From Bacteroidaceae bacterium (lineage in GTDB: Bacteria; Bacteroidota; Bacteroidia; Bacteroidales; Bacteroidaceae): a stretch of 55,621 bases of DNA. The stretch's first letter is position 1. Each line of letters opens with the position of its first letter. Made by a program: the position numbers and the translations under genes. The notes beneath the pieces were generated by a model, which searched no databases, was not told the origin of the DNA, and saw only the letters and a list, made by a program, of their open reading frames with translations. The DNA lies in the NCBI GenBank assembly GCA_017466325.1, contig JAFTUK010000027.1, forward strand, positions 1 through 55,621, in the 5' to 3' direction. This document shows, piece by piece, positions 5,589 through 34,573 of the stretch.

Positions 5589-5669
5589 GTCCTCGGTGGC
5601 GGTAAAATGAATCGCCAGTGGCGGTGAACTTTATCGCCGAGGGCGGCTCATTTTACCGCCACCGAGGAC
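5589..5669. repeat. Tandem palindrome array D (three 22-23 bp units)
   Basis: Three units with arms TGGCGGT/(A)TCGCC follow each other with a period of 22-23 bp, starting at 5597, 5619 and about 5642. The outermost sequences form a perfect 22-bp inverted repeat (5589-5610 with 5648-5669). The array lies between the convergent TPR and TonB-receptor genes. The preceding 210 bp (5378-5588) contain a small hairpin (TGTCCCTGGAAGTGC...) but no gene. Its geometry (about 7-nt arms, 2-nt centre, 7-nt spacer) matches the arrays at 16.1, 24.2 and 34.5 kb. Confidence 0.75.
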
Positions 5670-5720
5670 CGGATGAGGGGGCAGTAGGGGCATACTGTAT
5701 GGCGCCGGTATATTTCCCGT

Positions 5721-8099
5721 TTAGAACTCTACGTTCACCCGGAAGTTCACCATGCGGCCGGTCAGGTAGTTGGGCACTGCATACTGGTCGTTCTTCACAT
5801 CGGTCACCCAGTAGTATCCGCTCACGTTGTCGAAACCGAAGATGTTCAGGCAGTCTAGTCCTAACCAGATGTTGCGTATCGGGTTCTTGCGAAGGTGGCG
5901 GTCTTCGTTGTCGAGGGCGCGGAAGTTCAGACCAACGTCCACACGTTTGTATGCAGAGGAACGATAGACGTGCTCCTCCAGTCCCGTGTGTGGTGCGCCG
6001 AAGGGCAAGCCTCCTGCAAAGCAGGCCTTGAGGTTCATCTTCCACCGTGTGGTGTTGGGGAAATAGTCGGAGAAGAACATGTTCAGCGACCATGTCTGGT
6101 CGGTAGGTTGCGGTATGCTTTTCCCGTTGAGGTTCATGCGTGCGCGCATTAAAGAAAAGGTAAGCCACGAGTCAGTGCCCGGCACGAACTCTCCGTATAG
6201 TTTGAAGTCCACGCCCATCACGTTGCCTGTGGCGCAGTTGCGTCCGTAGTAGACAATCTTTGTGTTGTCTACCGTATAGGGGTTCAGGCGGTCCTGGGCC
6301 TTGTAATACAGTTCCGTGGAGAAAAGGAAAGGACGCTTGCCCAGTTTGAAACGATATTCGTAGCCGGCAATTATCTGGAAGGAACGTTGCGACTGGATGT
6401 TTTTGTTCAACTGTACGATGGTGGTGGCACCGTTGCTTACGGTATCTCGCAACTCTTTGTAGAATGGTCGCTGGTAGTAGAGTCCCGTTGCCAGACGCAA
6501 TGTCATGTTGTCGTGATTTTTTGGTATGAAGTTCAGGCTTGCACGAGGTGAGCAGAGCCATTCTCCGTTCCACGACCAATAGGACAGACGCAGACCATAG
6601 TTAAGGCTGAAGATGCCTTTGGCGGTTTCCCGTCTCCATGTGTCCTGGGCATACATTTCCAGGTGGTTGGATGATATGCTGTTTTCGCTTCGCAGGTTGT
6701 AGATTATTTCCAGTGCTTCTGGGTTGTGTGGCATGGAATAACCGGAACTGTCGCGGTATTCCCATTCGCGCGAACGTTCTCTTACGCTTTCGTGCCTGAA
6801 ACCTAATCCCGCTTCAAGATGGTGTCCCTTGTGCTTGTATTCATACGCCAGTTTCAGGCTGTGCTGGCTGCTGTTGAGCATGTTTCTGGCATGCTCCATG
6901 TATGTGCCCACGGCAAGTTCTGTGGCGGTGCTGGTGTTGGAAAGCCAGTATTGTCCCTGTATGTCGTATGTTTCCCTCTCCTGTGTGCTAAAGGCGGTGT
7001 AGTTCAGTGAGATAGAGTGGTTCTTGCCGATTTTCCTTTTTACACGTGCCGTGCCATAGAATGTCTGGAACAGGTCCTGTTCCCAACCGTCGAAATACAC
7101 CTTGAAATTGTGTATGTTCTCCATGGTGCCGAAACTCGTTTCGCGTGTGGCAGGGGTAAACTTGTAGTTGTTGTGCGAGATGTAACCGATTACGTCCACA
7201 GTCCAGTCCTTGGCCGGATTCCAAGACATGAATGCCTGGTAGTCAACGAAGTTTGGCGAGTATTCCGCTTCTGTTTCCAAAGCCCCCAGCATGTATGAGT
7301 TGGTCTTGTATCGCAGACTATGGGAAAAGGATACTTTTTTGTTGCCCCATCCCATGTAGGCCGAGGCTCCAAGCAGCGATGCGGAAAGGTCGCCTTCCCA
7401 TTTGGTGGGTTTGCGGTATTCTATGTCCAGAACGGAAGACATCTTGTCAGTATATTTTGCTTCAAATCCACCGGAACTGAAACGTATCTTGTCCACCATG
7501 AAAGGGTTGATGACAGACAGACCCTCCTGTTCTCCGCTGCGGATAAGCAGAGGGCGGTACACCTCTCCGCCGTTTATGTACACACAGTTCTCGTCGAACG
7601 AACCGCCACGCACGTTGTATTGGGACGACAGTTCGTTGTGCTGGGACACTCCGGCCTGTGTGGCAACAAGGTCTTCCACTGCATTTCCTGTGGTGCTGGG
7701 CATGCGCTTGATTTCCTCGGTGTTAAGTTCCTGCGTCTGTCCCATCTGTCTGCGCAGTTCCTTTATCTCCACCTCGCCCATGTCCACGGAATTGTCGTAC
7801 ATTACTATGTTCAGGGTCAGCTGTCCTTTGGGATTCCTCAGCACTCTCTGCCTGGTGCGGTAACCCATCATCTTGTAAGAAATCACCACAGAGTCAGCAG
7901 TATTGAAGGTGAGGCTGTATTTGCCGTCCAAATCGGCAGTAGTGCCGGCCGCCTGGCCCTCCACCTTGATAATGCACAGGCTTACGGGTTCGTTCTTTTC
8001 GTCAATGACCCGTCCTTTCAGGCTCACTTTGGTCGAGTCGGCAGCATGGGCGACAAAGGGAAATAAAAGAATTATGAAGTATAGTAATATCCGTTTCAT
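5721..8099 (-). CDS. TonB-dependent receptor with carboxypeptidase-like N-terminal domain
   Basis: The outer-membrane active transporter has 792 aa from the chosen start. That start gives a clean signal peptide (MKRILLYFIILLFPFVAHA); a longer frame back to 8183 adds a charged segment that would bury it. A CarboxypepD_reg-like beta-sandwich follows (about 25-110, SLKGRVIDEKNEPVSLCIIK), then the plug (about 130-240, with NVRGGSFDENCVYINGGEVY) and a 22-strand barrel ending in the aromatic signature VNFRVNVEF. No SusD partner is adjacent, so this is not a classic PUL pair, and its substrate cannot be told from sequence. Energy would come from TonB-ExbBD encoded elsewhere. Confidence 0.9.
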   Translation of the reverse strand: MKRILLYFIILLFPFVAHAADSTKVSLKGRVIDEKNEPVSLCIIKVEGQAAGTTADLDGKYSLTFNTADSVVISYKMMGYRTRQRVLRNPKGQLTLNIVMYDNSVDMGEVEIKELRRQMGQTQELNTEEIKRMPSTTGNAVEDLVATQAGVSQHNELSSQYNVRGGSFDENCVYINGGEVYRPLLIRSGEQEGLSVINPFMVDKIRFSSGGFEAKYTDKMSSVLDIEYRKPTKWEGDLSASLLGASAYMGWGNKKVSFSHSLRYKTNSYMLGALETEAEYSPNFVDYQAFMSWNPAKDWTVDVIGYISHNNYKFTPATRETSFGTMENIHNFKVYFDGWEQDLFQTFYGTARVKRKIGKNHSISLNYTAFSTQERETYDIQGQYWLSNTSTATELAVGTYMEHARNMLNSSQHSLKLAYEYKHKGHHLEAGLGFRHESVRERSREWEYRDSSGYSMPHNPEALEIIYNLRSENSISSNHLEMYAQDTWRRETAKGIFSLNYGLRLSYWSWNGEWLCSPRASLNFIPKNHDNMTLRLATGLYYQRPFYKELRDTVSNGATTIVQLNKNIQSQRSFQIIAGYEYRFKLGKRPFLFSTELYYKAQDRLNPYTVDNTKIVYYGRNCATGNVMGVDFKLYGEFVPGTDSWLTFSLMRARMNLNGKSIPQPTDQTWSLNMFFSDYFPNTTRWKMNLKACFAGGLPFGAPHTGLEEHVYRSSAYKRVDVGLNFRALDNEDRHLRKNPIRNIWLGLDCLNIFGFDNVSGYYWVTDVKNDQYAVPNYLTGRMVNFRVNVEF

Positions 8100-8202
8100 G
8101 CTTTTATAACGTAAAAATAGCCGCGTTTCTTGTTCGCAACGGCATATTTTTTTCTCTGACCGTATAGTCTGGGATTCTCTCACTCGGAAAATACAAAAGA
8201 TT

Positions 8203-8234
8203 TTTGGTTTTTCTCTCGTTTATTCGTATCTTTG
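8203..8234 (+). promoter_or_regulatory. Promoter for nitroreductase operon: TTTG-N20-TATCTTTG
   Basis: TTTG at 8203-8206 and TATCTTTG at 8227-8234 are separated by exactly 20 bp, as in two other promoters here (16.7 and 21.5 kb). The predicted start of transcription is near 8241, 16 nt before the nitroreductase ATG. The -7 box is directly followed by a minus-strand -7 box at 8239-8246. Confidence 0.75.
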
Positions 8235-8238
8235 TCCG

Positions 8239-8246
8239 CAAATATA
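8239..8246 (-). promoter_or_regulatory. Possible -7 box for the TonB receptor (TATATTTG, minus)
   Basis: CAAATATA on the plus strand gives TATATTTG on the minus strand. Transcription would begin near 8232 and leave a 5' untranslated leader of about 130 nt before the receptor start at 8099. It lies only 4 bp from the rightward -7 box, so the two promoters would compete for polymerase. No -33 box was found. Confidence 0.4.
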
Positions 8247-8256
8247 CATATAAAGA

Positions 8257-8787
8257 ATGGAACATTTTTCTGAATTGGCCAAAAATCGCCGTTCGCACAG
8301 GAAATTCACTCAGGAGAAGTTGGGCGAGGAAGAAATACAGACCTTGTTGGATGCTGCCCTGATGGCACCTACCAGCAAGGGACTTCACAGTTATTCGTTT
8401 TGTGTGGTCGAGAATCCGGAACTGCTTGCCCTCCTGTCCCAATGCAAGGCCATGGGCAGCCAGTTTGTGGCAGAATCGGTGTGTGCCATAGTGGTAATGG
8501 CAGAACCGGAAATCAGCGATGTGTGGATTGAGGATGCCTCCACAGCCGCTATGTCCGTGCTGTACCAGGCGGAAGACCTCGGGTTGGGAGCATGCTGGGT
8601 GCAGGTACGCGAAAGAAAGGATGCTGAGGGACGGGACAGCGAGGGAATAGTGCGTGAAATACTTTCCTTGCCAGATGAAAAACGCATTGTTTGCCTGATT
8701 GCCTTGGGGCATAAGGGCATGGAGCGCAAGGGACAGAACATGGAAAGGATAGAAACCCTGAAGCAGGAAAAGGTGATACGCCTGTAA
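8257..8787 (+). CDS. Nitroreductase family protein
   Basis: The 176-aa FMN-dependent oxidoreductase carries the family opening ELAKNRRSHRKFT (FMN phosphate-binding RRSxRxF) and the APTSKGLHSYSF segment. The central GLGACWVQVRER motif and the end region LPDEKRIVCLIALGH are also typical. It probably works as a homodimer with NAD(P)H and FMN in the cytoplasm; the substrate is unknown. It leads a set of closely spaced plus-strand genes (24 nt to the DUF2520 gene) and has its own strong promoter. Confidence 0.9.
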   Translation: MEHFSELAKNRRSHRKFTQEKLGEEEIQTLLDAALMAPTSKGLHSYSFCVVENPELLALLSQCKAMGSQFVAESVCAIVVMAEPEISDVWIEDASTAAMSVLYQAEDLGLGACWVQVRERKDAEGRDSEGIVREILSLPDEKRIVCLIALGHKGMERKGQNMERIETLKQEKVIRL

Positions 8788-8811
8788 CCCCCAGACAGAA
8801 CGTAGTACGGG

Positions 8812-9534
8812 ATGAAGATAGCAATAATAGGAAAGGGCAGGGTAGCCACCCATCTTACTCAGGCACTGGCTTCCGCAGGGCATGATATTGTAATGTGCGG
8901 AGGCAGGAAACGTATCCAGGCAGTCCCAACCGATGCCGAAGTGGTGATATTGTCCATAAAGGATGACGCCATAGCCCGTGTGGCATCGGAGTTTGCCAAC
9001 AGCAATGCCCTGATTCTGCATACATCGGGAAGCGTTTCCATCGATGCCATACCTTCGGAACACCGTGGAGTGATGTATCCTATGCAGACCTTCTCCATGG
9101 AGAGGGCCGTGGACTTCAGGCATATTCCGCTTTTCCTTGAAGCATCGTCGGAGGAAGACATGAATACCCTGAGCCGTCTGGCCGCTTCAATATCCGATAC
9201 GCAGATGCCTATGAGCAGCGGGCAGCGCAAGACCCTGCACCTTGCTGCGGTTCTGTGTTGCAACTTCGTGAACCACCTGTTTGAATTGTCCCATGACGTT
9301 ATGGCAGAGCAAGGCATACCCTTCAAGATACTGTTTCCCTTGATAGAGGAAACCTTTGCCAAGATACATACGATGACACCGCACGAGGCGCAGACAGGAC
9401 CTGCATTGCGATGGGACGAGAATGTCATGCAATGGCACATGGCCATGCTGCACGATCCGAGGCATAGGGAGATTTACCGCCTGCTGAGCGAATCGATACG
9501 CGTTACGCATACAAGGAAGAAATGTAAGCAATGA
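8812..9534 (+). CDS. Rossmann-fold/DUF2520 domain oxidoreductase-like protein
   Basis: The 240-aa protein has an N-terminal NAD(P)-binding Rossmann domain ([20 protein letters not shown], the GxGxxA-type loop). The C-terminal all-helical DUF2520 domain (about 125-235) contains [17 protein letters not shown]. The architecture resembles ProC- and F420-dependent reductases, but no substrate is known. The ATGA overlap with the next gene (KdsC-like) indicates translational coupling. The DUF2520-KdsC-Maf order is a recurring Bacteroidales cluster. Confidence 0.85.
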
Positions 9535-10049
9535 TAAACTACGACCTAAGTAAAATCAAACTTCTGGCCTTTGACATAGATGGCGTGCTGAGCGCCTCTA
9601 CCATACCGGTCGACGAAGACGGACAGCCCATACGCAGTGCCAACGTCAAGGACGGCTATGCCATTCAACTGGCTTTGAAGCAGGGGTTGCCGATAGCCAT
9701 AATAACAGGCGGCAGGCACGAGGCCGTAAGGCGCAGGTACGAGGGTCTGGGGTGTCAGGATGTCCACCTGGGTTGCAGCATGAAGATAGAAACCTATGAG
9801 GCACTTCTGGGGAAATACGGGCTGAAGGACGAGAATGTCCTGTACATGGGCGACGACATACCGGATTACGAGGTGATGAAGCGATGCGGATGCCCATGCT
9901 GTCCCAAGGATGCCGCACCGGAGATATGCGAAATATCGCTTTATATAAGCCATTGTCCCGGAGGAATGGGATGTGGCAGGGACGTGATAGAACAAGTCCT
10001 GAAAGCCCAAGGGAAATGGATGGCCGACCGCATGGCTTTCGGATGGTAA
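9531..10049 (+). CDS. KdsC-type HAD phosphatase
   Basis: The 172-aa haloacid-dehalogenase phosphatase has no cap domain. Motif I is [10 protein letters not shown] (nucleophile and acid Asp pair), motif II is the Thr in AIITGGRH, and motif III/IV is [14 protein letters not shown]. This matches 3-deoxy-D-manno-octulosonate-8-phosphate phosphatase, which makes Kdo for lipid A core, although the same fold serves nonulosonate phosphatases. A Cys-rich stretch ([11 protein letters not shown]) follows motif IV. The four-base overlap with the preceding gene shows coupling. The assignment as KdsC is likely but not proven from sequence alone. Confidence 0.82.
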
Positions 10050-10084
10050 AAGGATGAAACAAACATACGAGAACAAGATATAAT

Positions 10085-10681
10085 ATGAAGATAGTACTTG
10101 CATCTAACTCCCCCCGTCGCAGGGAACTCCTTGGCGCACTGGAGGTGGATTTTGAAGTCAGGACATTGGATGGGATAGAGGAGAGTTATCCTCAAGGACT
10201 TACTATGACAGGCATTCCGGAGCACATATCCAGTCAGAAGGCTATGGCATACGCTCTTGCCGATGATGAGTTGTTGATTACGGCCGATACCATCGTGTAT
10301 CTTGATGGAGAGGTTTTGGGCAAGCCTGCCAATGCAAAGGAGGCCTGTGCAATGTTGCGCAAACTTTCCGGCAAGACGCATCAGGTGATAACCGGAGTAA
10401 CCCTGCGAACCGTTGACCGTTCGCACACTTTCTCTTGCGTTACCGAGGTTACATTCGCACAACTCGCAGAAGAGCAGATAAAGCATTACGTTGATAACTA
10501 CGCTCCCTTTGACAAGGCTGGTGCTTACGGTATACAGGAATGGATAGGCTATGTTGGCGTAACAAAGATCAACGGTTCATACTATAATGTGATGGGATTG
10601 CCAGTTCAGCGCCTCAATCAGGAACTGACTGCCTTTATGAATAACGAGACAAATTCTTTCCTGGACAGTTTCATATATTGA
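10085..10681 (+). CDS. maf: Maf family nucleotide pyrophosphatase
   Basis: The 198-aa protein opens with the Maf signature ILASNSPRRRELL. The ADTIVYLDGEVLGKPANA segment (catalytic Asp) and FDKAGAYGIQEW (QG-type substrate loop) follow, then INGSYYNVMGLPV. Maf proteins hydrolyse non-canonical or pyrimidine nucleoside triphosphates such as dTTP and UTP and help sanitise the nucleotide pool; overexpression blocks septation in Bacillus. It lies 35 nt after the KdsC-like gene in the same transcription unit. Confidence 0.93.
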   Translation: MKIVLASNSPRRRELLGALEVDFEVRTLDGIEESYPQGLTMTGIPEHISSQKAMAYALADDELLITADTIVYLDGEVLGKPANAKEACAMLRKLSGKTHQVITGVTLRTVDRSHTFSCVTEVTFAQLAEEQIKHYVDNYAPFDKAGAYGIQEWIGYVGVTKINGSYYNVMGLPVQRLNQELTAFMNNETNSFLDSFIY

Positions 10682-10729
10682 GACGTATGGGGATAATGCA
10701 AACTTAAACAAATAACAATACAACCTATT

Positions 10730-11359
10730 ATGAAAAATAAGATAATAATCCTGCTTGTTTCTCTGCTTGCCTTCGTTTTTACAGGGTGTTCGGAAAATAA
10801 TGACGGTCCTGAGGTTACTCCTCCAAGTTGGAAAGGCTTTAATTATGTAGTCAAGAAAGTCGTACCTGACGGACAGACTGGTGAAAACGAACAGATCGAA
10901 CGCGGTACTGTAGAGCCGGGAGATGAGATAAAGGTATATGCCGTAAGGAAAAATAAGGGCGCAAACATCGGTCAGATTTCCGGAAACATCTATGTGCGCT
11001 ATACAATATCCCCAGAAAAGGGTGATGTCATATCCGGAACATTGGACAAACCGGTAACGTCACTGGCAAATAGTTCGTACACAGGATGGGAGGACCCCTA
11101 TGCAACTTTTGCATTGCCTTCCATTGATCAGCCTTATGATTATTTCAAGGTGGAAGTGGCATGTCAGTTCTACTTCAAGGCGTTCGGTAACCAGAACTCT
11201 ATGGTTGACTATAGCGATCAGACCTCTCATGAAGAACCATATATCGGCAGCATCTTCACAGATCTTGCCAATTTCCATCCCATGAACGGTGGCTCTGCCA
11301 ATTCAGGACAGGCAGGTGGAGACCTTAAATATCACACGATTCGTCTATACAGGAAATAA
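10730..11359 (+). CDS. Hypothetical lipoprotein, 209 aa
   Basis: A lipoprotein signal peptide with lipobox VFTGC (Cys20) is followed by an acidic spacer. The mature domain is mixed beta, about 170 residues, with segments such as FNYVVKKVVPDGQTGENEQI and EIKVYAVRKNKGANIG. No family is recognised. It starts 49 nt after maf and stops 2 nt before the serine deaminase gene, so it is probably in the same transcript although functionally unrelated. It is likely on the outer membrane or surface. Confidence 0.75.
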   Translation: MKNKIIILLVSLLAFVFTGCSENNDGPEVTPPSWKGFNYVVKKVVPDGQTGENEQIERGTVEPGDEIKVYAVRKNKGANIGQISGNIYVRYTISPEKGDVISGTLDKPVTSLANSSYTGWEDPYATFALPSIDQPYDYFKVEVACQFYFKAFGNQNSMVDYSDQTSHEEPYIGSIFTDLANFHPMNGGSANSGQAGGDLKYHTIRLYRK

Positions 11360-11361
11360 CT

Positions 11362-12570: not shown

Positions 12571-12642
12571 GTTGGTGCGCCCGTTTGATGAAGCGAGATA
12601 ATTTTTATAGCTAACATAACAAATCAGTTAAGATAAGCACAA

Positions 12643-13467
12643 ATGAAACAAGAAGCATTGATAGAAAGTATTCTTGACCTGAATTCAACCAATGTATGGA
12701 AGGTTAGTGAGCAGGATATCAAGAAGGCTTGGGAAGCAGAGAAACAGGAGGGCAATTTTTCTGCCAGTGAAGAGAAATTGCTGAATATAATACGTCTGAG
12801 TTTTGAAGTTGTTCACTACAATACGTCTGATCCACGCGAGAAGGCGAAGTATGAAAACGGAGAATGGACAACATTTCAACATTGTAGCGAAAAGAAGGGC
12901 TGGGTGGCCATACGCAAGAAATACATAACCCGTCTGTCTGACCTGAGTTATGAAAATATCCGCCATATAACGGTTGCAACACTTTTGGAACTTATCGACC
13001 GCAATTTCGGCGGCGGATGGGACAGCATTGCTCTGAGCCTTAAGGATATTATTTTGAGCGGTTTTGAAATCAGCACTACAACATTGCCAGCAAGTCGCAT
13101 CCATGCTCCTGGCGGAACTTTGGAGAGAAAGGTGGCCCAAGGATTTGAGGTGCTTGAGATAGAAAAGGGTACATGGGTAGAGGCTATTTTTGCAAAGAAG
13201 AAGGAACCTGTGGCCAAGATACGTATGAATGAGGATAGGTACGATGAAGATGGCAATTTGCGCAGATCTCCAAGCAAGATGTCTGACGACGATGAGGACT
13301 TGCCAGAAGAAACCGAACAGGGATTGGATGATGAGGAGGATAACGACCTCGGAGACGATCAGATGGACGAAATGTATTACAGCAGCATATCCGAGGGAGT
13401 GAAGAACCGCGAGGATCAGGACGATGACGAGTTTTCCGGACTTTCCATTGAGGAAGGCGAGGAGTAA
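12643..13467 (+). CDS. Conserved-looking hypothetical protein with acidic tail, 274 aa
   Basis: I do not recognise this protein. It has no signal peptide or membrane helix and should be cytoplasmic. Residues 1-195 look globular (for example LNIIRLSFEVVHYNTSDPRE, RKYITRLSDLSYENI and PASRIHAPGGTLERKVAQGF). The last 80 residues are strongly acidic with runs of Asp and Glu (DDDEDLPEE, DDEEDNDLGDD), which suggests a disordered tail that mimics nucleic acid or binds a basic partner. It sits alone on the plus strand between sdaA and the TamL gene, with a 72-nt AT-rich upstream gap. Confidence 0.75.
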   Translation: MKQEALIESILDLNSTNVWKVSEQDIKKAWEAEKQEGNFSASEEKLLNIIRLSFEVVHYNTSDPREKAKYENGEWTTFQHCSEKKGWVAIRKKYITRLSDLSYENIRHITVATLLELIDRNFGGGWDSIALSLKDIILSGFEISTTTLPASRIHAPGGTLERKVAQGFEVLEIEKGTWVEAIFAKKKEPVAKIRMNEDRYDEDGNLRRSPSKMSDDDEDLPEETEQGLDDEEDNDLGDDQMDEMYYSSISEGVKNREDQDDDEFSGLSIEEGEE

Positions 13468-16098: not shown

Positions 16099-16164
16099 AG
16101 TGTTGTTGCATCAACACTCCAGTGTTGCTACGTCAACACTGTGGTGTTGTCGCTACAACACTGC
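16099..16164. repeat. Tandem palindrome array A (three 22-bp units)
   Basis: Units start at 16099, 16121 and 16143. Each is AGTGTTG, a 6-nt spacer, CAACACT and 2 nt (the third has GGTGTTG and ACAACACT). Read in the other register, CAACACT-NN-AGTGTTG palindromes repeat every 22 bp. The last unit overlaps the stop codon (16153) of the leftward DUF6078-like gene, so the array forms that gene's 3' end. As RNA it would fold into three 7-bp hairpins separated by 2 nt. Confidence 0.8.
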
Positions 16165-16580
16165 CTTGACCTTCTGTTCTCCCCAGTGTGTTCTTTCTTC
16201 TATGCTGTCAAAGACGAGTGGAGTTTCTATTCCCAGTTCTGAGGCAATCCTTGTTATCGTTTCTTGAATCTCCGGAGTCATCAGGAATTCTCCGCGTCTG
16301 TAGCGGTAGTAATTGTAAAGTCCGAACTGTTCCACCAGCATGCTCCGCAGTTCTTCGGCCTTTGCTCTCGGCAAGGTTCTCATCAGTTTTACAAACCCTC
16401 GGGCATATACAGCCGGTGTACTGTCGGTATAGCATGGACACTGCTCTGTACCACCGTTTTCGTCTATCCACCTATGGTCATAGAAATAGGCCTGTTTTAC
16501 AACCGGGTGTTCCATGTATGCAGACAGTTCATGCGTCTCGGGCAATCTTTACGCGAGCAGAATGTAAACTGCTTGGGCAT
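16153..16580 (-). pseudogene. DUF6078-like protein gene, disrupted by a frameshift
   Basis: Two minus-strand frames together give one protein homologous to the intact copy at 34.57-35.01 kb. The first frame starts with ATG at 16580 and encodes MPKQFTFCSRKDCPRRMNCL before a stop at 16497-16499. The second frame, readable from about 16545 to the stop at 16153, encodes the rest (TEQCPCYTDSTPAVYARGF... to SIEERTHWGEQKVKAVL). The paralogue has the same order: C-x4-DCP-x4-CL, then C, C, TPVVYAKGF and a C-terminal helical part. Joining the frames needs a single -1 shift between about 16545 and 16497, which could be a real mutation or an assembly error. A TATCTTTG promoter upstream supports the 16580 start. 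The family name is from memory and its function is unknown. Confidence 0.75.
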
Positions 16581-22537: not shown

Positions 22538-24130
22538 ATGAACATATATCAAGTATTTACCCGTTTGTTCGGTGCCAATGTGGAGCATCCCGTTCCGCAT
22601 GGCAGCAAGAGTCAGAACGGATGCGGCACCATGTCGGCCTTTACTGCCAAGGCCTTGGCCGACATCAAGGCCATGGGCGTGACCCACATCTGGTACACAG
22701 GCATCATAGAGCATGCCACGCAAACCGACTATAGCCGTTACGGCATACGCAAGGACCACCCCGAGGTGGTGAAGGGCCGTGCCGGCAGTCCCTATGCCAT
22801 AAAGGACTACTACGACGTGGATCCCGACCTGGCAACCAAGGTGCCCGAGCGCATCAAGGAATGGGAGGCACTCATAGAGCGCACCCACAAGGCCGGGATG
22901 AAGGTCATCCAGGACTTCGTGCCCAACCATGTGGCACGCGAGTACCACTCGGATGCCTGTCCCGAGGGATGCAAGGACCTGGGCGAGGGCGACGATACCT
23001 CGCTCAACTACTCTCCCGAGAACAACTTCTACTACATGGGCGAACCTCTCCATCTGGACAATATCCTGAGCGAAGAGGAGCGTGCCAAGGCCAACCTCTA
23101 CGAGGAGAACCCCGCCAAGGCTACCGGCAACGATGTGTTCTCTGCATGGCCGGGCAGGAACGACTGGTACGAGACGGTAAAACTGAACTATGGTCCCAAT
23201 ACCTATGCCAAGATGCTTCAAATACTGCTCTACTGGGCGGAGAAGGGCGTGGACGGTTTCCGTTGCGACATGGCCGAGATGGTGCCCGTGGAGTTCTGGG
23301 AATGGGTGATACCTCAGGTAAAGGAGCAATACCCCGACATCATCTTCATAGCAGAGGTGTACAACCCTCAGTTGTACCGCGACTACATCTTCCGCGGACA
23401 CTTCGACTACCTTTATGACAAGGTGGGACTTTACGACAAACTCAAGGCCGTATCCGCAGGATGGTGCTCGGCCAAGGAACTGACATCATGCTGGCAGAGC
23501 GTGGAGGACATACAGGACCACATGCTCAACTTCCTGGAGAACCACGACGAGCAGCGCATAGCCAGCGACTTCTTCGCAGGCGATGCCAAGAAGGGCCGTC
23601 CCATGATGCTGGTGAGCACACTGATGAACACCAACCCCATGATGATATACTTCGGCCAGGAACTGGGCGAGAAGGGTATGGACAGCGAGGGTTTCTCTGG
23701 CGAGGACGGACGTACGACCATCTTCGACTACTGGACGGTGGATACCATACGCCGTTGGCGAAACGGCGGAAAGTTCGACGGTGCCCTGCTCACTGACGAG
23801 GAAAAGAAACTGAAGGAGTTCTACACACAGACCCTGCGTCTGGCCGAGGAGGAACCTGCCTTCAGCGAAGGACTCTTCTGGGACCTGATGTACATGAACG
23901 GGCATCTGGACAGACAGTATGCCTTCCTGCGTAGCGACAAGAACAAGACCTACCTGGTGGTGGCCAACTTCTCCGATGAGAACATCACCACAGATATCCG
24001 CATTCCTGCCGATGCCATCCGCTCGCTCACTCCCGAATCGGAGAAGGTGAAGAACAACCTTGCCCACGACATTACCGTGTCTATCAAGGTGAAGGCCTGG
24101 GACGGCATCGTAAAGAAGATAAAGTTGTAG
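22538..24130 (+). CDS. GH13-family alpha-glucan hydrolase (cytoplasmic)
   Basis: The 530-aa protein has no signal peptide. The (beta/alpha)8 catalytic barrel shows all GH13 regions: I DFVPNH, II GFRCDMAEM (nucleophile Asp), III FIAEVY (acid/base Glu) and IV FLENHDE. An all-beta C-terminal domain (about 445-530) follows. It probably acts on intracellular maltodextrin or glycogen; exact specificity is unclear. It is 18 nt downstream of fabD. A tandem palindrome array lies between its stop and manC. Confidence 0.9.
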   Translation: MNIYQVFTRLFGANVEHPVPHGSKSQNGCGTMSAFTAKALADIKAMGVTHIWYTGIIEHATQTDYSRYGIRKDHPEVVKGRAGSPYAIKDYYDVDPDLATKVPERIKEWEALIERTHKAGMKVIQDFVPNHVAREYHSDACPEGCKDLGEGDDTSLNYSPENNFYYMGEPLHLDNILSEEERAKANLYEENPAKATGNDVFSAWPGRNDWYETVKLNYGPNTYAKMLQILLYWAEKGVDGFRCDMAEMVPVEFWEWVIPQVKEQYPDIIFIAEVYNPQLYRDYIFRGHFDYLYDKVGLYDKLKAVSAGWCSAKELTSCWQSVEDIQDHMLNFLENHDEQRIASDFFAGDAKKGRPMMLVSTLMNTNPMMIYFGQELGEKGMDSEGFSGEDGRTTIFDYWTVDTIRRWRNGGKFDGALLTDEEKKLKEFYTQTLRLAEEEPAFSEGLFWDLMYMNGHLDRQYAFLRSDKNKTYLVVANFSDENITTDIRIPADAIRSLTPESEKVKNNLAHDITVSIKVKAWDGIVKKIKL

Positions 24131-24137
24131 GGAAAAC

Positions 24138-24225
24138 GCCTCGTGAGACGACGGCCCTCGCCTCGTGATGCGATGCCCTTCGCCTCGTGATGCGACAACC
24201 TTTGCCTCGTGAGGCGATACACATC
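24138..24225. repeat. Tandem palindrome array B (four 22-bp units)
   Basis: Four units start at 24138, 24160, 24182 and 24204, each beginning GCCTCGTGA and followed by a (G/T)GCGA or GACGA arm. The core palindrome is TCGCCTC-GT-GAGGCGA (7-2-7) with a 6-nt spacer, so the period is 22 bp. It lies 7 bp after the GH13 stop and about 50 bp before manC, inside what is otherwise an operon. There are no unique spacers and no cas genes, so it is not CRISPR. Confidence 0.8.
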
Positions 24226-26487: not shown

Positions 26488-26521
26488 CCTGTCTGACATT
26501 CTAACCGAACGAGATAGTTAT

Positions 26522-27466: not shown

Positions 27467-27527
27467 ACATGGCATTTGAGTGCCATGCCTTGTAAAGAAC
27501 AAACATTGGTTATCCTTAGATACTATT

Positions 27528-30365
27528 ATGAAGAAACTATTGTCCCTTCCCCCAAATCTGGTAGAGTGCTTCCATGACGTGGCCGGTGTCAGCCGTGAGG
27601 AATATTTCTGCACCTCTGACCCTGTAGGTGCACGACTTGGCAGCGGAGGCGGAACAAACTGGCTGATGGAAGCCTGCCATCAGGACGAGGCTCCCGAAAA
27701 GACTTTCGAAGAGTGGCTTTCACGCGAGAAGCGCATCTTGTTGCATGCCGGAGGCCAAAGCCGGCGCTTGCCTGGTTATGCCCCCAGTGGCAAGGTGCTT
27801 ACACCCATACCCGTCTTCCGTTGGGCTCGTGGCCAGCGCATAGGTCAGAACCTCTTGCAGTTACAGTTGCCATTGTACCAGCGCATCATGAATGCCGCAC
27901 CTGCCGGGCTCCGTACCCTGATAGCATCGGGCGATGTCTATATCCGTGCAGGCAAGTTGCAACAGATTCCCGATGCCGATGTAGTGTGCTACGGACTTTG
28001 GGTAGATCCCTCCCTGGCCAAGAACCACGGTGTGTTCCTTTCCAAGAGGGAGACGCCCGAGGTGCTTGACTTTGTGCTTCAGAAGCCCTCGGTGGAGAAG
28101 TTGGGAGAGTTGATGCACAGCCACCTGTTCCTTATGGACATAGGCATCTGGTTGCTGTCCGACAAAGCCGTAAACCTGCTCATGAGCAAGAGTACCGGCA
28201 AGGGAGGCGAGATATTGAACTACGACCTCTATAGCGACTTCGGCCAGGCACTCGGCGAGAATCCTACCACCACAGATGCCGAGATCAGCCAGTTGAAGGT
28301 GGCGGTATTGCCTTTGCAGGACGGTGAGTTCTATCACTACGGCACATCGCGCGAGATGATTAGTTCCACCATGGCCATACAGAATCTTGTGTACGACCAG
28401 CGCGCCATCATGCATTTGGGCGTGAAGGCACACCCGAGCATCTTCACCCAGAACTGTTATCACGACATAAAGTTCTCTCCTACGAACCAGAACACGTGGA
28501 TAGAGAACTCGTGGATACCTTCCACTTGGACCTTGACCCACGAGAACATCATCACCGGAGTGCCTCAAAACGATTGGACAATCAGCCTTGTTCCCGGCAT
28601 CTGTGTTGATGTCGTGCCATTGGGCGAAAGCCAGTGGGTTCTGCGCCCCTACGGTTTCAATGATGCTATGCGTGGTGACCTGCGCGACGCCTCTACCGAG
28701 TACCTCGGACGCCCTGTGGGAGAATGGCTCTCAAAGCGTGGCATCTCTGCCGAAGAGGTGGACGGCAACACCGACTTGCAGAACAGCCGTATCTTCCCCG
28801 TGTGTGACAACATTGAGGAGATGGGCCGCCTGCTCCAGTGGATGATATCCGACACCCCTGCCGATATGACGGATGTATGGAGAGCATGCGAACGCCTCTC
28901 CGCCAACGAAATCAGCGACAAGGCCAACCTTCGCCGCCTTCAGAAGCAACGCCTGGAGTTCCGAAAGGCCAACCTTACCGCCCTGGCAAACAACCACAGA
29001 TGCAGTATCTTCTATCAGACTAACCTCGATGATTTGGCTCATGAATTCCATAATCTTCAGGTGCCGGTTCCCGAGTCTCTGCCCGAGACCGAACCTCTGC
29101 TGAAGCGCATCAACGACCACATGTTCCGTTCCCGTCTGTTGGAACTGAACGGACAGGACGGTTCTGAAGCCGGAGCAAAGGCATTCTCCTTGCTTGGCGA
29201 AGGACTGACGGAAGACGTGCTTGCCCACAAGCAGATGCCCCAGTTGGACGTGTACAGCGACCAGATAGTATGGGGTAGAAGTCCCGTCAGGATAGATTTG
29301 GCCGGAGGATGGACAGACACGCCTCCTTACTGCCTCACTTCAGGCGGCAGTGTGGTAAATCTGGCCATAGAGTTGAACGGCCAGCCTCCCCTGCAGGCAT
29401 ACGTAAAACCCTCGGCAGACTACCATGTCGTGCTCCGAAGCATCGACTTGGGCGCTATAGAAATTCTCACCACATGGGAGGAACTGGCAGATTTTGCCAA
29501 GGTAGGCTCTCCCTTCTCCATTCCCAAGGCAGCCCTGGCACTGGCAGGTTTCCTGCCCCAGTTCTGTCAGAAGAAGTACAAGTCTCTTCAGGAGCAGTTG
29601 AAGGACTTCGGATGCGGCATAGAGGTGACTCTGCTCAGTGCAATACCTGCCGGCAGCGGTTTGGGCACAAGTTCCATCCTGGCCGCAACGGTATTGGGGG
29701 CAGTGAGCGACTTCTGCGGATTGGCATGGAGTAAGAACGAGATATGCAACCGCACGCTTGTGCTGGAGCAACTCCTCACCACAGGAGGCGGTTGGCAGGA
29801 CCAGTATGGAGGTGTGCTCCATGGCGTGAAGTTGCTTACCACTCAGGACGGTTTCGAGCAGACACCCGAAATCAGTTGGCTCAGCGACAACCTCTTCACC
29901 GACTCCCAGTATCAGGCATGCCATCTGCTGTACTACACAGGCATAACACGTACCGCCAAGAAGATTCTTGCAGAGATAGTACGTGGCATGTTCCTCTACG
30001 ATACGGAACGCCTGCAACTGCTTGGCGAGATGAAAGAACACGCCCAGGATGTTGCCCAGGCCATTATGCGAGGCAATTACACGCAACTCGGCACACTTGT
30101 AGGCAAGACGTGGTATCAGAACCAACTGTTGGACAGCGGTACCAATCCTCCTGAGGTACAGGCCATCATCGAGAAGGTTCAGGATCTCTGTCTCGGCTTG
30201 AAGTTGCCTGGAGCTGGTGGAGGCGGTTTCCTCTATATGGTAGCAAAGGATCCCACTGCAGCCCTTCGCATCCGCGAGATACTTACAAAGGAACGTCCCA
30301 ACGAGCGTGCCCGTTTCGTGGAAATGAGCATGTCGCGTACCGGTCTTCAGGTATCGCGTAGTTAA
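27528..30365 (+). CDS. fkp: Bifunctional L-fucokinase/fucose-1-phosphate guanylyltransferase (Fkp)
   Basis: The 945-aa protein is close to the length of the Bacteroides enzyme. The N-terminal pyrophosphorylase half (about 60-450) has LHAGGQSRRLPGYAPSGK, and a beta-helix-like middle follows. The C-terminal GHMP kinase half (about 580-945) has the ATP loop PAGSGLGTSS (about 707-717), WGRSPVRIDLAGGWTDTPPY and the terminal GAGGGGFLYM. It salvages free L-fucose to GDP-fucose for surface glycans and glycoproteins. The start at 27528 was chosen because MKKLLSLPPNL fits the family; a frame extending to 27480 adds 16 non-homologous residues. Confidence 0.95.
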   Translation: MKKLLSLPPNLVECFHDVAGVSREEYFCTSDPVGARLGSGGGTNWLMEACHQDEAPEKTFEEWLSREKRILLHAGGQSRRLPGYAPSGKVLTPIPVFRWARGQRIGQNLLQLQLPLYQRIMNAAPAGLRTLIASGDVYIRAGKLQQIPDADVVCYGLWVDPSLAKNHGVFLSKRETPEVLDFVLQKPSVEKLGELMHSHLFLMDIGIWLLSDKAVNLLMSKSTGKGGEILNYDLYSDFGQALGENPTTTDAEISQLKVAVLPLQDGEFYHYGTSREMISSTMAIQNLVYDQRAIMHLGVKAHPSIFTQNCYHDIKFSPTNQNTWIENSWIPSTWTLTHENIITGVPQNDWTISLVPGICVDVVPLGESQWVLRPYGFNDAMRGDLRDASTEYLGRPVGEWLSKRGISAEEVDGNTDLQNSRIFPVCDNIEEMGRLLQWMISDTPADMTDVWRACERLSANEISDKANLRRLQKQRLEFRKANLTALANNHRCSIFYQTNLDDLAHEFHNLQVPVPESLPETEPLLKRINDHMFRSRLLELNGQDGSEAGAKAFSLLGEGLTEDVLAHKQMPQLDVYSDQIVWGRSPVRIDLAGGWTDTPPYCLTSGGSVVNLAIELNGQPPLQAYVKPSADYHVVLRSIDLGAIEILTTWEELADFAKVGSPFSIPKAALALAGFLPQFCQKKYKSLQEQLKDFGCGIEVTLLSAIPAGSGLGTSSILAATVLGAVSDFCGLAWSKNEICNRTLVLEQLLTTGGGWQDQYGGVLHGVKLLTTQDGFEQTPEISWLSDNLFTDSQYQACHLLYYTGITRTAKKILAEIVRGMFLYDTERLQLLGEMKEHAQDVAQAIMRGNYTQLGTLVGKTWYQNQLLDSGTNPPEVQAIIEKVQDLCLGLKLPGAGGGGFLYMVAKDPTAALRIREILTKERPNERARFVEMSMSRTGLQVSRS

Positions 30366-30456
30366 TCGTACAGGGGGGGGTATAACCCAATTAAATGCAG
30401 ATGAATAGGGCTGGTTCCACTTCGTTGGGGCCGGCCCTAAATCAATGTTGCCTCCC

Positions 30457-30501
30457 AGTCGGTCATTAGCGTTATGATGATCCCAAATCGCTCATTAGCG
30501 C
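30457..30501. repeat. Dispersed palindromic repeat family, copy 2 (two direct half-copies)
   Basis: CAGTCGGTCATTAGCG (from 30456) and CCCAAATCGCTCATTAGCG (from 30482) are two half-elements in direct orientation. The string CGGTCATTAGCGTTATGATGAT also occurs inverted at the right side of the copy at 3.4 kb, which shows a common origin rather than chance. Confidence 0.7.
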
Positions 30502-30539
30502 CTAACGGCCTAACGGCCTATTGGCCTATTGGCCTATTT
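30500..30539. repeat. 8-bp tandem repeat, five units
   Basis: The units are GCCTAACG, GCCTAACG, GCCTATTG, GCCTATTG and GCCTATTT. It begins inside the last bases of the dispersed repeat and lies about 240 bp upstream of the GH20 start. Such short units can change number by slippage. Confidence 0.75.
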
Positions 30540-30654
30540 GCTTTGCAGGTAGCATTAGTGCATTATTGTCACGGTATGATGGAAATTTAACTCTGTACAT
30601 CTGTTTCCGGAACACTTTTCATCCGATAAAGGTGGGTTCTTGAAATAAAAACAT

Positions 30655-30662
30655 TAACTTTG
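30655..30662 (+). promoter_or_regulatory. -7 box TAACTTTG for GH20 hexosaminidase
   Basis: The TAnnTTTG match gives a start near 30669 and a 5' leader of about 113 nt. No good -33 box was found, which may mean that an activator or alternative sigma factor is used. Confidence 0.5.
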
Positions 30663-30781
30663 CCATTGTCCGGAAGGATGTGAACCTGTTTGCATGGCTT
30701 TGGGAATGAATGACTCTGCATGTGGAAAAGTCATGACGATAGGAATGAATCGGTAAACTTAAATCTATATTATATATAATT

Positions 30782-33700
30782 ATGAAAAAGCATTTCTTAT
30801 CCCTGCTTTGCGTGTTGCTGGCATCGGTGCATGCAATGGCACAAGGTTTCCCTGCGGTAAGTACCGACCAGGAAACAAGGTGGTACCTGATCCAGTTTAT
30901 GAACGGAGGCAATGCCTTGATGGCTGAAACTGACGGTGCCAACATTACCACAGGTCCGGTCATCGGCAGCAAAGCACAATTGTGGAAGATTACGGGTTCC
31001 GCATCCGACGGGTATGTGTTTACTAACAAACTCGGCTATACCCTCAGCGTGGAATCTGCGGCCAAAAACCAGATGGTGCGTGCCCAGGCCTCTGCTACAG
31101 GCACATGCACATTTGCCATCAACACTACTGCGGTGTCCGAATATTCGGGTGCTTACGAAATCCAACCCAAGACAAACACCGCCATCTCAATGAACCTGTG
31201 GGGCGGACCTGCGGAAAACCGTGGTGTGGGCCTTTGGGACAAGGGCGACAAGAACAATCCGGTGAAGTTCGTGGATGCCGAGAGCCTGGCTAAGATAGAC
31301 AAGACTGCTCTCATTCCATACCCCAACAAGTTGGAACTAAGGGAGGGCACTTTGGCCGTTTCGTCCATTTCCGCCATTGCCTATGCCGGTGCGGAAATGA
31401 AGGAGCATGCCGAGGAGTTTGCCAAACAACTAAGCGTCTCCACGGGCATGACCATAGAAGTAAGGGAAGCGGGCGACGCGCCCTCTGCCGGCGAGATATG
31501 GTTTGGCACCGACGAGGTGCTTGCCAAGGAGGCCTACACCTTGAGTATCACATCCGAGGCTGTCACCATCAGGGCTTCCGAGTTCGGCGGTTGGTTCTAT
31601 GCCTTGCAGACGCTGAAGCAACTCATGCCACGCAATTTCTTTGCCGGAGAAAAGCAAAGCGATGCTGAGGTATGGACCCTGCCTTGCCTGAAAATAGAGG
31701 ACCGTCCGCACTTGGGGCATCGCGGCTACATGCTCGACATTGCCCGCCATTTCTTCAACAAGGAAGAGGTGAAGAAGGTGTTGGACATCATGGCCCTTTA
31801 TAAGATGAACCGTTTCCACTGGCATCTGACCGACGACCAGGGTTGGCGCATACACATCCCCGAGTATCCCAAACTCACCGAAGTGGGTGCCATACGCAAG
31901 GGTTCGTTTGCCAACAATGGCGACGGACAGAAATTCTTTGACGACACCGAGTACGGCCGTGGCATGTTCTACACTCTCGAGGACCTTAGCGAGATTGTCG
32001 CCTATGCCAAGGCTCGCAACATAGAGATCATCCCCGAGGTGGACCTCCCCGGTCACATGGTGGCAGCCGTTGCATCATATCCCGAACTGAGTTGCGACCC
32101 CAGCAAGAAGTATGAGGTACGCATTGACGGCGGCATATCAAAAGATGTTCTCAACGTAGGCGACGACCGTGTAATCGACTTCCTCAAGTGCGTGCTTGGC
32201 CATGTGGCAACCGTTTTTCCCTATGACTACGTCCATATCGGTGGCGACGAGTGCCCCACGGACCAGTGGAAGACCAACCAGATGTGTCTGGATCGTGTGA
32301 AGGAACTGGGGCTTGACGGCGTTCACCAGTTGCAATCATGGCTTGTGGAGGAACTGGGTATCTTCCTTAAGGAAGAGTATGGCAAGGACATCGTCGTGTG
32401 GGACGAACTCCTGCACAACTGGAACGACAACAACAAAACCAAACCTGTCATCATGGCATGGAACGGCATGAACTTCAGTACCCAGGCAGCCAACCGTGGT
32501 TTTAAGTCCATCATCGTGCCCTACCAGTATCTGTATATCGACTTCATGCAGGGAGAGGAGGGCGACCTCTTCGTGGACGAACCCTATCATGGCGGATGGG
32601 GTGTGAACACCGTGGACGAGATATATGGCCTCAATCCCCTGAGCGCCTTGAGCGGCAAGGAGGAATTTGCTCTCGGCGTGCAGTGCAACATGTGGACGGA
32701 GACCTGTAACGACATTGACGAGTTGGAATACTGCCTCCTGCCCCGCATGTTGGCCGTGTCCGAAATTGGATGGCTGCCCACGAACAAGAAGGACTGGACA
32801 TCTTTCTACCTGCGCTTGCAGACACATGACGAAATCTTCGACCACCTGGATTATCAGTATGCCAAGCACTTCATCCAGCCCAAGGATTACACCGGGCAGG
32901 AAAGCACCATCATGGAAGCAGAGGAAATCCTTGCCAAGAGCATACGTGGCGGTGTCGGATACCCCAGTGTAGAGGTGTACGATGCTCTGAAGAATGCGCT
33001 GGAGAGCACCGACGGCCAGGATGTCAGCGCCCTTGCACAGGCAATCAGTGACTACAAGGCGGCCGACATTGTCCAGCCGCAGGAGGGCAAGACCTATCAG
33101 ATTGTCTCTGCTTCCACCTACTACAAACGTCAGTACGAGGGTTCCACCATGTACCAGAAGGATGGCGGAGTGCGTTTCCATTTTACTCCCCAGACAGAAC
33201 CCGAGGAACTCTGGCAGTTCGTACCCACCGATGGCGGTTACCTGCTCAAGAATCTATGCACAGGCAAGTTCGTGAAGATGGGCGCTTACAACACGGCACT
33301 GGAAATGGTGGAGAGTGGCGCTACTCCCATCCGCATGGACAAGGCCACCATCGCCACCAAGAATTTCACATATATCCCTGGTGTGGTCACCCTCTCTGCC
33401 GTAAGTGGCTACAATGCCCAGATGACCGGTCAGGTGAAGCGCTTCAGCGCGGAACTCTCCGGTGATGTCTATGCCAAGGATGAGGCCGCCCTATGCTACA
33501 ACGGTACATGGAAGGTGGTGGAAGTGACCGACTTCAGTGCCCAGTTGAAGGGTCTTGTCAACAAGTGTGAAATCATCCTCCTCACCGCCCAGCCAGGCGA
33601 AATGGGCAATTACACACAGGAGGCTCTCGACTTTGCCGAGCAGAACATCATCCTTCCTGCCCAGAAGGCATTGGAAGAGGGCGTCGTTTCGGAGGAGAAA

Positions 33701-34309
33701 TACAACCAGTTCCTGGACATCTACAACCAGTTCATACAGATGCCCAAGACTTCCATCTCGCAAACCCTGAGCGAAGGCCATTACTATTATATCCGTAACG
33801 TGTGGTTCGGCAGATATGCCAAATACAACACTTCCGACAAGGGCTTGGCTATTTCTTCCACCAAGACCGAGGACGACACCTATCTCTGGCGCATAAAGAA
33901 GAATGCCGACGGCACCGTATTCATATACAGTAAGAAGACACAGACGGCCGCCTATCTTGCCTCCAACGCCGTTGACCAGAAGGTGAAGGTGGGCAAGGAC
34001 TATGCTTGGACACTGGAAGAGCGCACCCTCGACGGCAAGAGCGGCATCTGCATCATAGACGGAAGCAAGAAATACAGTTGGTACACCAACCCCGACGCCT
34101 GGACCTACATACTGATGAAACCCTTCTGGGGAGCATGCACATGGGAGTTCCAGAAAAGCGGTGTGGAGGTTCCCACCGGCATCGGCGACATAGAGGAAAC
34201 GGAAAACGGAAAACGGGAAACGGAAAACTGCTACGACCTGTCCGGACGTCAGGTTCGCAAAGCCGCCAAGGGTGTCTACATCACCAACGGACAGATTGTA
34301 GTGAAGTAA
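30782..34309 (+). CDS. Secreted GH20 beta-N-acetylhexosaminidase, multidomain
   Basis: The 1175-aa protein has a signal peptide (ending HAMAQG). An N-terminal ricin-like beta module (about 35-165) is followed by a GH20b domain (about 175-300). The GH20 barrel (about 308-700) has HRGYMLDIARHFF, NRFHWHLTDDQGWRI, EVDLPGHM and the catalytic pair in HIGGDEC (Asp489-Glu490). Two more ricin-like modules lie at about 775-920 and 990-1130. The C-terminal sorting-type domain ends YDLSGRQVRKAAKGVYITNG. It would release terminal GlcNAc or GalNAc from host glycans outside the cell. The linker before the last domain (about 1136-1150) is encoded by the gaaaacg repeat. Confidence 0.93.
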   Translation: MKKHFLSLLCVLLASVHAMAQGFPAVSTDQETRWYLIQFMNGGNALMAETDGANITTGPVIGSKAQLWKITGSASDGYVFTNKLGYTLSVESAAKNQMVRAQASATGTCTFAINTTAVSEYSGAYEIQPKTNTAISMNLWGGPAENRGVGLWDKGDKNNPVKFVDAESLAKIDKTALIPYPNKLELREGTLAVSSISAIAYAGAEMKEHAEEFAKQLSVSTGMTIEVREAGDAPSAGEIWFGTDEVLAKEAYTLSITSEAVTIRASEFGGWFYALQTLKQLMPRNFFAGEKQSDAEVWTLPCLKIEDRPHLGHRGYMLDIARHFFNKEEVKKVLDIMALYKMNRFHWHLTDDQGWRIHIPEYPKLTEVGAIRKGSFANNGDGQKFFDDTEYGRGMFYTLEDLSEIVAYAKARNIEIIPEVDLPGHMVAAVASYPELSCDPSKKYEVRIDGGISKDVLNVGDDRVIDFLKCVLGHVATVFPYDYVHIGGDECPTDQWKTNQMCLDRVKELGLDGVHQLQSWLVEELGIFLKEEYGKDIVVWDELLHNWNDNNKTKPVIMAWNGMNFSTQAANRGFKSIIVPYQYLYIDFMQGEEGDLFVDEPYHGGWGVNTVDEIYGLNPLSALSGKEEFALGVQCNMWTETCNDIDELEYCLLPRMLAVSEIGWLPTNKKDWTSFYLRLQTHDEIFDHLDYQYAKHFIQPKDYTGQESTIMEAEEILAKSIRGGVGYPSVEVYDALKNALESTDGQDVSALAQAISDYKAADIVQPQEGKTYQIVSASTYYKRQYEGSTMYQKDGGVRFHFTPQTEPEELWQFVPTDGGYLLKNLCTGKFVKMGAYNTALEMVESGATPIRMDKATIATKNFTYIPGVVTLSAVSGYNAQMTGQVKRFSAELSGDVYAKDEAALCYNGTWKVVEVTDFSAQLKGLVNKCEIILLTAQPGEMGNYTQEALDFAEQNIILPAQKALEEGVVSEEKYNQFLDIYNQFIQMPKTSISQTLSEGHYYYIRNVWFGRYAKYNTSDKGLAISSTKTEDDTYLWRIKKNADGTVFIYSKKTQTAAYLASNAVDQKVKVGKDYAWTLEERTLDGKSGICIIDGSKKYSWYTNPDAWTYILMKPFWGACTWEFQKSGVEVPTGIGDIEETENGKRETENCYDLSGRQVRKAAKGVYITNGQIVVK

Positions 34310-34311
34310 AG

Positions 34312-34410
34312 CAATAAGCATCTGCCATCTACGACCTGAGTGGCAGCCGTGTCACCGCTCCAGCAAAGGGCATCTATATTGTGGACGGAAAGAAGCAGGT
34401 TATCCGGTAA
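34312..34410 (+). pseudogene. Orphan C-terminal sorting-domain remnant
   Basis: Just after the GH20 stop, in a different frame, 34324-34410 encodes AIYDLSGSRVTAPAKGIYIV... ending in VIR and a stop. It is a full YDLSGxxV-type C-terminal domain of 28 residues without a start codon or a protein in front. It looks like the original or a replaced tail of the hexosaminidase, stranded when the present tail was acquired. Confidence 0.75.
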
Positions 34411-34432
34411 TTGGAATTGGACTTATTTATGA

Positions 34433-34472
34433 AACGAGAGGATGCTCCTGAATTCAGGGACATCCTCTCGTT
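34433..34472 (+). terminator. Strong hairpin terminator after the GH20 gene
   Basis: AACGAGAGGATG (34433-34444) pairs perfectly with CATCCTCTCGTT (34461-34472), and the loop itself contains the palindrome CCTGAATTCAGG. It probably ends the hexosaminidase transcript, though the downstream U-tract is short. Confidence 0.7.
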
Positions 34473-34504
34473 GTGATATGTGTTGCTCCTCCCGTGTCTT
34501 TGCC

Positions 34505-34573
34505 AGTCCTCATAGTATAAGGACTTGAGTCCTCCTACTACGAGGACTGCAGTCCTCTTACTATGAGGACTCG
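34505..34573. repeat. Tandem palindrome array C (three 23-bp units)
   Basis: Units start at 34505, 34528 and 34551. Each is AGTCCTC, a 7-nt spacer, (G/A)AGGACT and 2 nt. The array ends exactly one base before the stop codon of the leftward DUF6078-like gene at 34574. Geometry is the same as arrays A, B and D (7-nt arms, 2-nt centre), but the arm sequence is unrelated. Confidence 0.82.

Follow-up and report, generated by a model that had tools for sequence, protein, structure and literature searches.

The stretch of DNA analysed here, hereafter the window, is a 55,621-nucleotide contig (C18; JAFTUK010000027.1) of the draft genome G000 of a Bacteroidaceae bacterium (2.59 Mb, 88% complete). It contains four tandem arrays of short palindromes, two of which adjoin genes encoding proteins of the DUF6078 family (Table 1), and the pairing of this protein family with arrays of this type is the subject of the present work. 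The arrays, also named below by their approximate starting positions (5589, 16099, 24138 and 34505), repeat every 22 bp, apart from the 34505 array with its 23 bp. Geometry is least strict in the 5589 array, which lies within an 81-bp near-palindrome and has 7-nt loops and 3-nt linkers. Each array is located at the 3′ end of a gene, as a sequence-only reading of this DNA had stated. No DUF6078 partner was found for the 5589 array, nor a DUF6078 gene directly adjacent to the 24138 array, and the product of the gene at 16153–16545 does not conserve the N-terminal cysteines of the family.

Table 1. Palindrome arrays and DUF6078 genes in the window
Feature	Position	Strand	Description
Array 1	5589–5669	.	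81-bp palindromic element between GTCCTCGGT and ACCGAGGAC; three GGCGGT-N7-ACCGCC units, 22 bp; between convergent genes
Array 2	16099–16162	.	Three AGTGTTG-N6-CAACACT units (core TGTTG-N6-CAACA), period exactly 22 bp; overlaps the stop codon of the minus-strand gene 16153–16545
DUF6078 (PF19555) gene	16153–16545	-	Pfam E 3.2e-19; stop codon inside array 2
Array 3	24137–24217	.	About four CGCCTCGTGAGGCGA-type units, 22 bp; begins 6–7 nt past the stop codon at 24130; flanked by a GH13-like gene and a mannose-1-phosphate guanylyltransferase-like gene
Array 4	34505–34571	.	Three AGTCCTC-N-TA-N-TA-N-GAGGACT units, 23 bp; its end adjoins the minus-strand stop codon at 34574
DUF6078 (PF19555) gene	34574–35038	-	Pfam E 6.5e-31; array 4 begins 2 nt past the stop codon

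The existence of the four arrays was confirmed by systematic scanning. A strict scan (arms of 7 nt, at least 6/7 pairs, three successive units) recovered three of them, missing the 5589 array, and returned no array in 20 dinucleotide shuffles of the window, while arms of 6 nt with at least 5/6 pairs recovered all four. When the 7-nt arms were relaxed to 5/7 pairs the shuffles averaged 4.05 matches, none with a unit identity above 0.5. In 1.47 Mb, made up of the window and the loci of 80 relatives, there were 32 arrays of at least three near-palindromes against 1 in one shuffle, and the period was exactly 22 bp in 22 of the 32, although periods of 16–44 were allowed. These results uphold the earlier expectation that such arrays exceed chance. 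Likewise, the claim of one geometry with changing sequence was borne out.

DUF6078 genes appeared repeatedly next to such arrays at other loci. A profile of the family run against all sampled loci found, in the same genome, a C-terminal remnant (L004) whose stop codon is followed 2 nt later by an AGTCCTC array and a gene (L015) whose 3′ part is contained in L263, where array units were seen by eye. Both genes found in Prevotella veroralis are followed by an array, one of TTATACA type about 115 bp after the stop codon (L190) and the other a 22-bp repeat about 63 bp after it (L188), whereas the single gene in Segatella copri (L117) has none (2/2 versus 0/1). As an independent test, plasmid and phage collections were queried with DUF6078 proteins alone, giving ten loci, one per record, from Parabacteroides, Bacteroides, Treponema and gut contigs; the plasmid record from Treponema has another DUF6078-like place, which stands outside this count. 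A 22-bp array lies behind the DUF6078 gene in all ten. The half-sites of these arrays are AGTACT (L264), GTGNCA (L265), AGTTTC (L266), AGTTTCC (L268 and L269), TTTGCCA (L270), GTTTC (L271) and of GTACCC type (L272); a GTTTC array overlaps the stop codon in L267, and another lies about 233 bp behind the partial gene of L273. The L267 pair is carried on a plasmid of Treponema saccharophilum, and its occurrence outside Bacteroidota suggests that gene and array move together.

Automated scoring of 16 DUF6078 genes placed an array at most 250 bp downstream in 13 of them and upstream in none (0/16). The three misses were L267, whose array starts within the gene, L263, with its units seen by eye, and L117, with no array; L273 was read separately, outside this scoring. 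The base rate of an array downstream of any gene, measured at slightly different settings, was 30/305, 17/209, 41/273, 46/797 and 2/283 in five sets (0.7–15%), and at 15% the eight automated matches among the nine scored plasmid and phage genes have a probability of about 2e-6. A scan of ten proteins, of which nine are neighbours of arrays at other loci, found no common family besides DUF6078. One query returned 268 DUF6078 relatives, and the literature search found no paper naming the family. No relative was detected in viral contigs and no match above cut-off in NCBIfam or PADLOC; the best match among PDB sequences had an E of 0.47. Several of the best, though weak, structural matches were lambda-repressor-like helix-turn-helix (HTH) proteins.

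The sequence of the half-site tracks the relatedness of the protein. The half-sites of all members but L188 were recorded before the protein tree was made; that of L188 and some seventh letters were fixed afterwards. Across 15 members, a protein and its nearest relative had on average 5.33 half-site letters in common against 3.93 under permutation, with none of 20,000 permutations reaching the observed value, and the same test with program-extracted half-sites gave P 0.0005. The Mantel correlation was 0.27 (P 0.008) with all 15 and 0.22 (P 0.10) with 11. Individual pairs illustrate the trend: the proteins of L268 and L269 are 48% identical and both have AGTTTCC, those of L265 and L270 are 56% identical and both have TGCCA, and GTTTC occurs in L267, L271 and L273 alike. 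Within the set compared, related DUF6078 proteins are thus shown to carry related half-sites.

The internal structure of the units is that of sites on duplex DNA. In the 34505 family (AGTCCTC-N-TA-N-TA-N-GAGGACT, 28 units) the three N positions hold at most 0.2 bits and the TA steps are invariant, and in the 16099 family (TGTTG-N-Y-R-Y-R-N-CAACA) nine core positions are invariant and the tenth is kept in 49 of 50. The loops are variable yet symmetric under reverse complementation (N-TA-N-TA-N and N-Y-R-Y-R-N), a symmetry which fits a dimer site on duplex DNA. Half-sites follow one another at 11 bp in alternating orientation in 79 of the 85 intervals of 16 distinct TGTTG arrays, and in the best-resolved families the spacing is nearly exact despite the variable loops. 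The two arms changed mostly independently: in five families (34505, 5589, 16099 and two from P. veroralis) double arm changes were observed 1, 1, 9, 0 and 6 times against 1.7, 7.0, 7.8, 0.2 and 6.2 expected under independence. Exceptions are the P. veroralis TTATACA family, with 6 double changes against 1.0 expected, and locus L159, where arm changes preserve pairing. Sequence comparison shows four properties, namely adjacency of gene and array, a fixed spacing of about 22 bp, alternating half-site orientation and mostly independent half-sites, and the arrays look like cooperative, dyad-symmetric protein-binding sites two helical turns apart.

The 22-bp geometry is widespread in gut and oral Bacteroidaceae related to Prevotella. 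Relatives were sampled through the TamL protein, whose closest named matches come from uncultured rumen and gut Bacteroidaceae/Prevotellaceae (66–79% identity for L040–L050; 80 of 91 loci kept). With periods of 14–69 allowed, period 22 accounted for 13 of 21 palindrome arrays in the genome's own sample, which was chosen around copies of the 5589 element, 6/15 in congeners, 19/33 in P. veroralis (400 kb), 3/4 in P. denticola and 21/34 in Bacteroidaceae loci, whereas the three sets taken from other families had 0/8. Shuffles, three for each set, averaged 0 arrays, except 1.0 in the order set, where the stretches were short (258 kb). Among intergenic tandem repeats of Prevotella-like Bacteroidaceae with a period of at least 10, Tandem Repeats Finder reports 22 bp most often, again with unrelated sequences: 100 of 278 repeats in five Bacteroidaceae samples have a 22-bp unit versus 0 of 29 outside (Fisher P 1e-5), or 85 of 237 when the own sample is left out. 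Strong palindromicity was seen in 31 of the 100. The remaining genera of the family were sampled in 20 stretches of 20 kb, of which two came from the own genus and one consisted of N throughout (L244, which reads as N, was set aside); a few of these contain 22-bp repeats, palindromic arrays are rare among them, and a 50-kb E. coli control had no 22-bp repeat and one palindrome array, of period 18.

Most of these arrays are intergenic (77 of 85 with periods 20–24). With genes taken as simple open-frame predictions and four P. veroralis arrays counted twice (L070 overlaps L198 and L199), 35 arrays fall in convergent gaps, whose length predicts 18, and 5 in divergent gaps, for which 16 are expected; single arrays also occur upstream of genes. 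Downstream of TamL the gene order was not shared by the relatives examined, so that no empty site was obtained; one P. jejuni gap that contains an array exceeds its counterpart in P. denticola in length.

Within its own genome, every window array is a member of a dispersed family. BLAST placed the 34505 array at 9 sites, the 24138 array at 5 and the 16099 array at 9, and the 5589 element, which is near-palindromic from end to end, at 40 (40 of 67 candidates were scored), all counts including the window. The scored 5589 copies are 81–99% identical on the better strand. Searches of 24 congeners and of 16 further genomes from the order found neither the 5589 nor the 34505 family, so that, as far as sampled, both would be species-specific; the viral contigs had no match for three array patterns. 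Pattern searches gave 25 AGTCCTC-type sites in the genome versus 0 for the reversed pattern, 24 of them in arrays at 23 or 46 bp. For TGTTG-N6-CAACA there were 79 sites versus 9 for the control, and 43 of the 50 listed form 14 arrays with spacings of 22 or 44 bp. In P. veroralis, TATACA-N4-TGTATA had 69 sites and its control 0; of the 50 sites listed, 47 belong to 11 arrays spaced at 22 bp. No family-wide common flank was seen around the 16099 and 34505 arrays; by eye, some TGTTG arrays have a flank of 10–15 bp in common (L252/L255, L251/L253).

Several further observations concern the arrays and other repeats. By eye, three P. veroralis arrays (L191:7774, L199:4193, L207:230) centre a larger imperfect palindrome of about 300 bp with long complementary flanks, a CTTATAGGAAKAYGATA-type flank is common to different arm families (L194:16370, L198:7885, L201:16233), and several arrays adjoin a 23-bp TTTAAGTTAAAGTACGATTGA-type repeat. 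Arrays of TTATACA-CGTT-TGTATAA and TTGGACA-CGTT-TGTCCAA can have a common loop and similar linkers with different arms (L196:12218, L194:16370, L214:16738), and the latter type is present in both P. veroralis and P. denticola. A CCTAGG palindrome array of period 20 in the own genome (L129:16753) falls outside the 22-bp rule. The window also holds heptanucleotide tandem repeats AAACGGA/TTTCCGT at several places (34197–34228, 39940–39969 and 53829–53857).

Our favoured explanation, to which we assign a probability of roughly 0.6, is a two-part module in which DUF6078 is predicted to bind both the adjacent array and its dispersed copies. Its first part would be a gene for a small DUF6078 protein, and its second the dyad-symmetric DNA sites that follow this gene immediately in tandem, copies of the same array family lying at other intergenic places. 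Dimers of the protein may cooperate in a row along one face of the array DNA, each covering two turns and probably making contact by the C-terminal domain, and each paralog would have its own specificity, protein and array changing together while the geometry stays. DUF6078 is the likely partner protein of the arrays, as a DNA-binding factor; a copying enzyme, one of the mechanisms put forward by the sequence-only reading, is no more than possible. It is a considerably more speculative idea, which we regard as doubtful, that bound arrays serve as roadblocks or insulators at gene ends and that the adjacent array controls its own DUF6078 gene.

The arrays could instead be mobile DNA, a minisatellite or an element resembling a miniature inverted-repeat transposable element (MITE), with its form kept by descent and DUF6078 as hitch-hiking cargo or a favoured neighbour. 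The abundance and high identity of the 5589 copies and the flanks common to some TGTTG arrays speak for this, as does BrickBuilt of Porphyromonas gingivalis, described as a 23-nt minisatellite within a MITE (PMC4596501). However, the 34505 and 16099 families have little in common beyond arms and spacing, their loops are near random at the N positions, which simple descent would not produce, many species have period 22 in sequences unrelated to one another, and inspection by eye of the flanks around 12 copies from the 5589 family showed no target duplication. We consider this origin unlikely, and still less probable is a mutational ruler, that is, replication slippage or template switching which favours 22-bp units in the absence of any binding protein. 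Such a process would agree with the dominance of period 22 in palindromic and non-palindromic repeats alike and with the harmonics of the repeat period at 44 and 66, but the variable columns are clustered in 22-bp arrays (z 5.85, 37 arrays), against z 0.87 in 8 arrays of 21/23 bp and 1.23 in 7 arrays of 10–19 bp, comparison classes that are small. Sites are also almost confined to arrays with conserved half-sites, and slippage leaves unexplained both the adjacency of DUF6078 and the match between protein and half-site.

An element acting at the RNA level, as a string of hairpins or one long hairpin that stabilises or terminates transcripts in 3′ untranslated regions, appears equally improbable. 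The window arrays do fold far better than shuffles (z −13.7 for the 5589 array, and −6.2, −4.8 and −8.3), arrays are enriched in convergent gaps, and the TTATACA family has compensatory changes. Nevertheless, each window array folds as one long hairpin, not three in a row, which departs from the strings of 7-bp hairpins proposed by the sequence-only reading. In a test of the long hairpin, the first and last loops of the 34505 family proved not complementary (6/24 positions), and complementarity was marginal for the 16099 family (P 0.05, 16 distinct arrays). There is no G-U strand bias, the non-Watson-Crick cells on the transcribed strand being 36 G-T and 31 A-C, no Rfam family reached the gathering score, and hairpins would need no strict 22-bp spacing. 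Together with the lack of arm covariation in five families, these results leave the earlier suggestion of selection on RNA shape unsupported.

The module assumed in our favoured explanation is best read as resembling a phage operator array or a pair of repetitive extragenic palindromes (REP) and their transposase (RAYT), apparently without being either. REP palindromes pair with a gene for a RAYT (Y1) transposase. The present arrays are likewise short intergenic palindromes in high copy with a copy beside a protein gene, but have strict 22/23-bp phasing and DUF6078 as partner. G000, whose draft is 88% complete, contains no match to the Y1 transposase (PF01797), and of 12 congeners 3 have one, near cut-off only; site logos of four families contain no GTAG or CGTC tag. 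REP elements and their BIME assemblies are known as short intergenic palindromes in many copies and species-specific families (PMC3733652). BrickBuilt, a 23-nt intergenic tandem repeat with conserved and non-conserved sites within the unit, resembles the arrays in unit length and location and comes from the same taxonomic order, but as described is a single sequence family with leader and tail, and the string 'palindrom' is absent from the text describing it (PMC4596501). PINSR of Prevotella intermedia is likewise intergenic, in high copy and restricted to a Prevotella lineage, but has a 188-bp unit and, in the part of its description consulted, no 22-bp periodicity (PMC4755523).

Known operator arrays offer a parallel in geometry. 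The lambda OR region and the sites of restriction-controller C proteins consist of two or three dyad-symmetric sites about two turns apart, bound by cooperative dimers of a small HTH protein. The arrays described here are dyad-symmetric at a helical phasing too, but lie behind genes and not at promoters, as seen in the gap counts and in the scoring of DUF6078 genes; the three families that were counted have 25–79 sites in a genome, and an HTH fold of DUF6078 is only hinted at by the structural matches. Two other repeat systems were rejected. CRISPR repeats are separated by unique spacers of about 20–50 nt, and the variable parts of these arrays measure about 2–10 nt; in type III toxin-antitoxin systems the RNA repeat array lies upstream of the toxin gene, and here it lies downstream of DUF6078. 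None of the titles and abstracts listed in the literature searches dealt with palindrome arrays of fixed period, and in the literature and database searches made no named element of this form turned up, in agreement with the sequence-only reading. Taken together, the fixed period and the pairing with DUF6078 suggest an undescribed partnership of DNA-binding protein and repeats.

In its widest form, which we hold to be possible but somewhat short of even odds, the DUF6078 proteins would form a large, as yet undescribed family that binds arrays sequence-specifically and changes its specificity fast. Each paralog would own one 22-bp array family seeded beside its gene and then dispersed, protein and target co-evolving while a two-turn filament geometry is held. 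This would amount to a new selfish or genome-organising system of Bacteroidales, carried also into Treponema. The present data turn a repeat pattern into a testable protein–DNA pairing and supply a family without assigned function with a predicted target, legible in the DNA downstream of each gene. Should it hold true, the pairing would provide a natural series of co-evolved DNA-binding specificities, explain a leading class of intergenic tandem repeats in Prevotella-like bacteria and add an unrelated system to the type of architecture represented by REP and RAYT.

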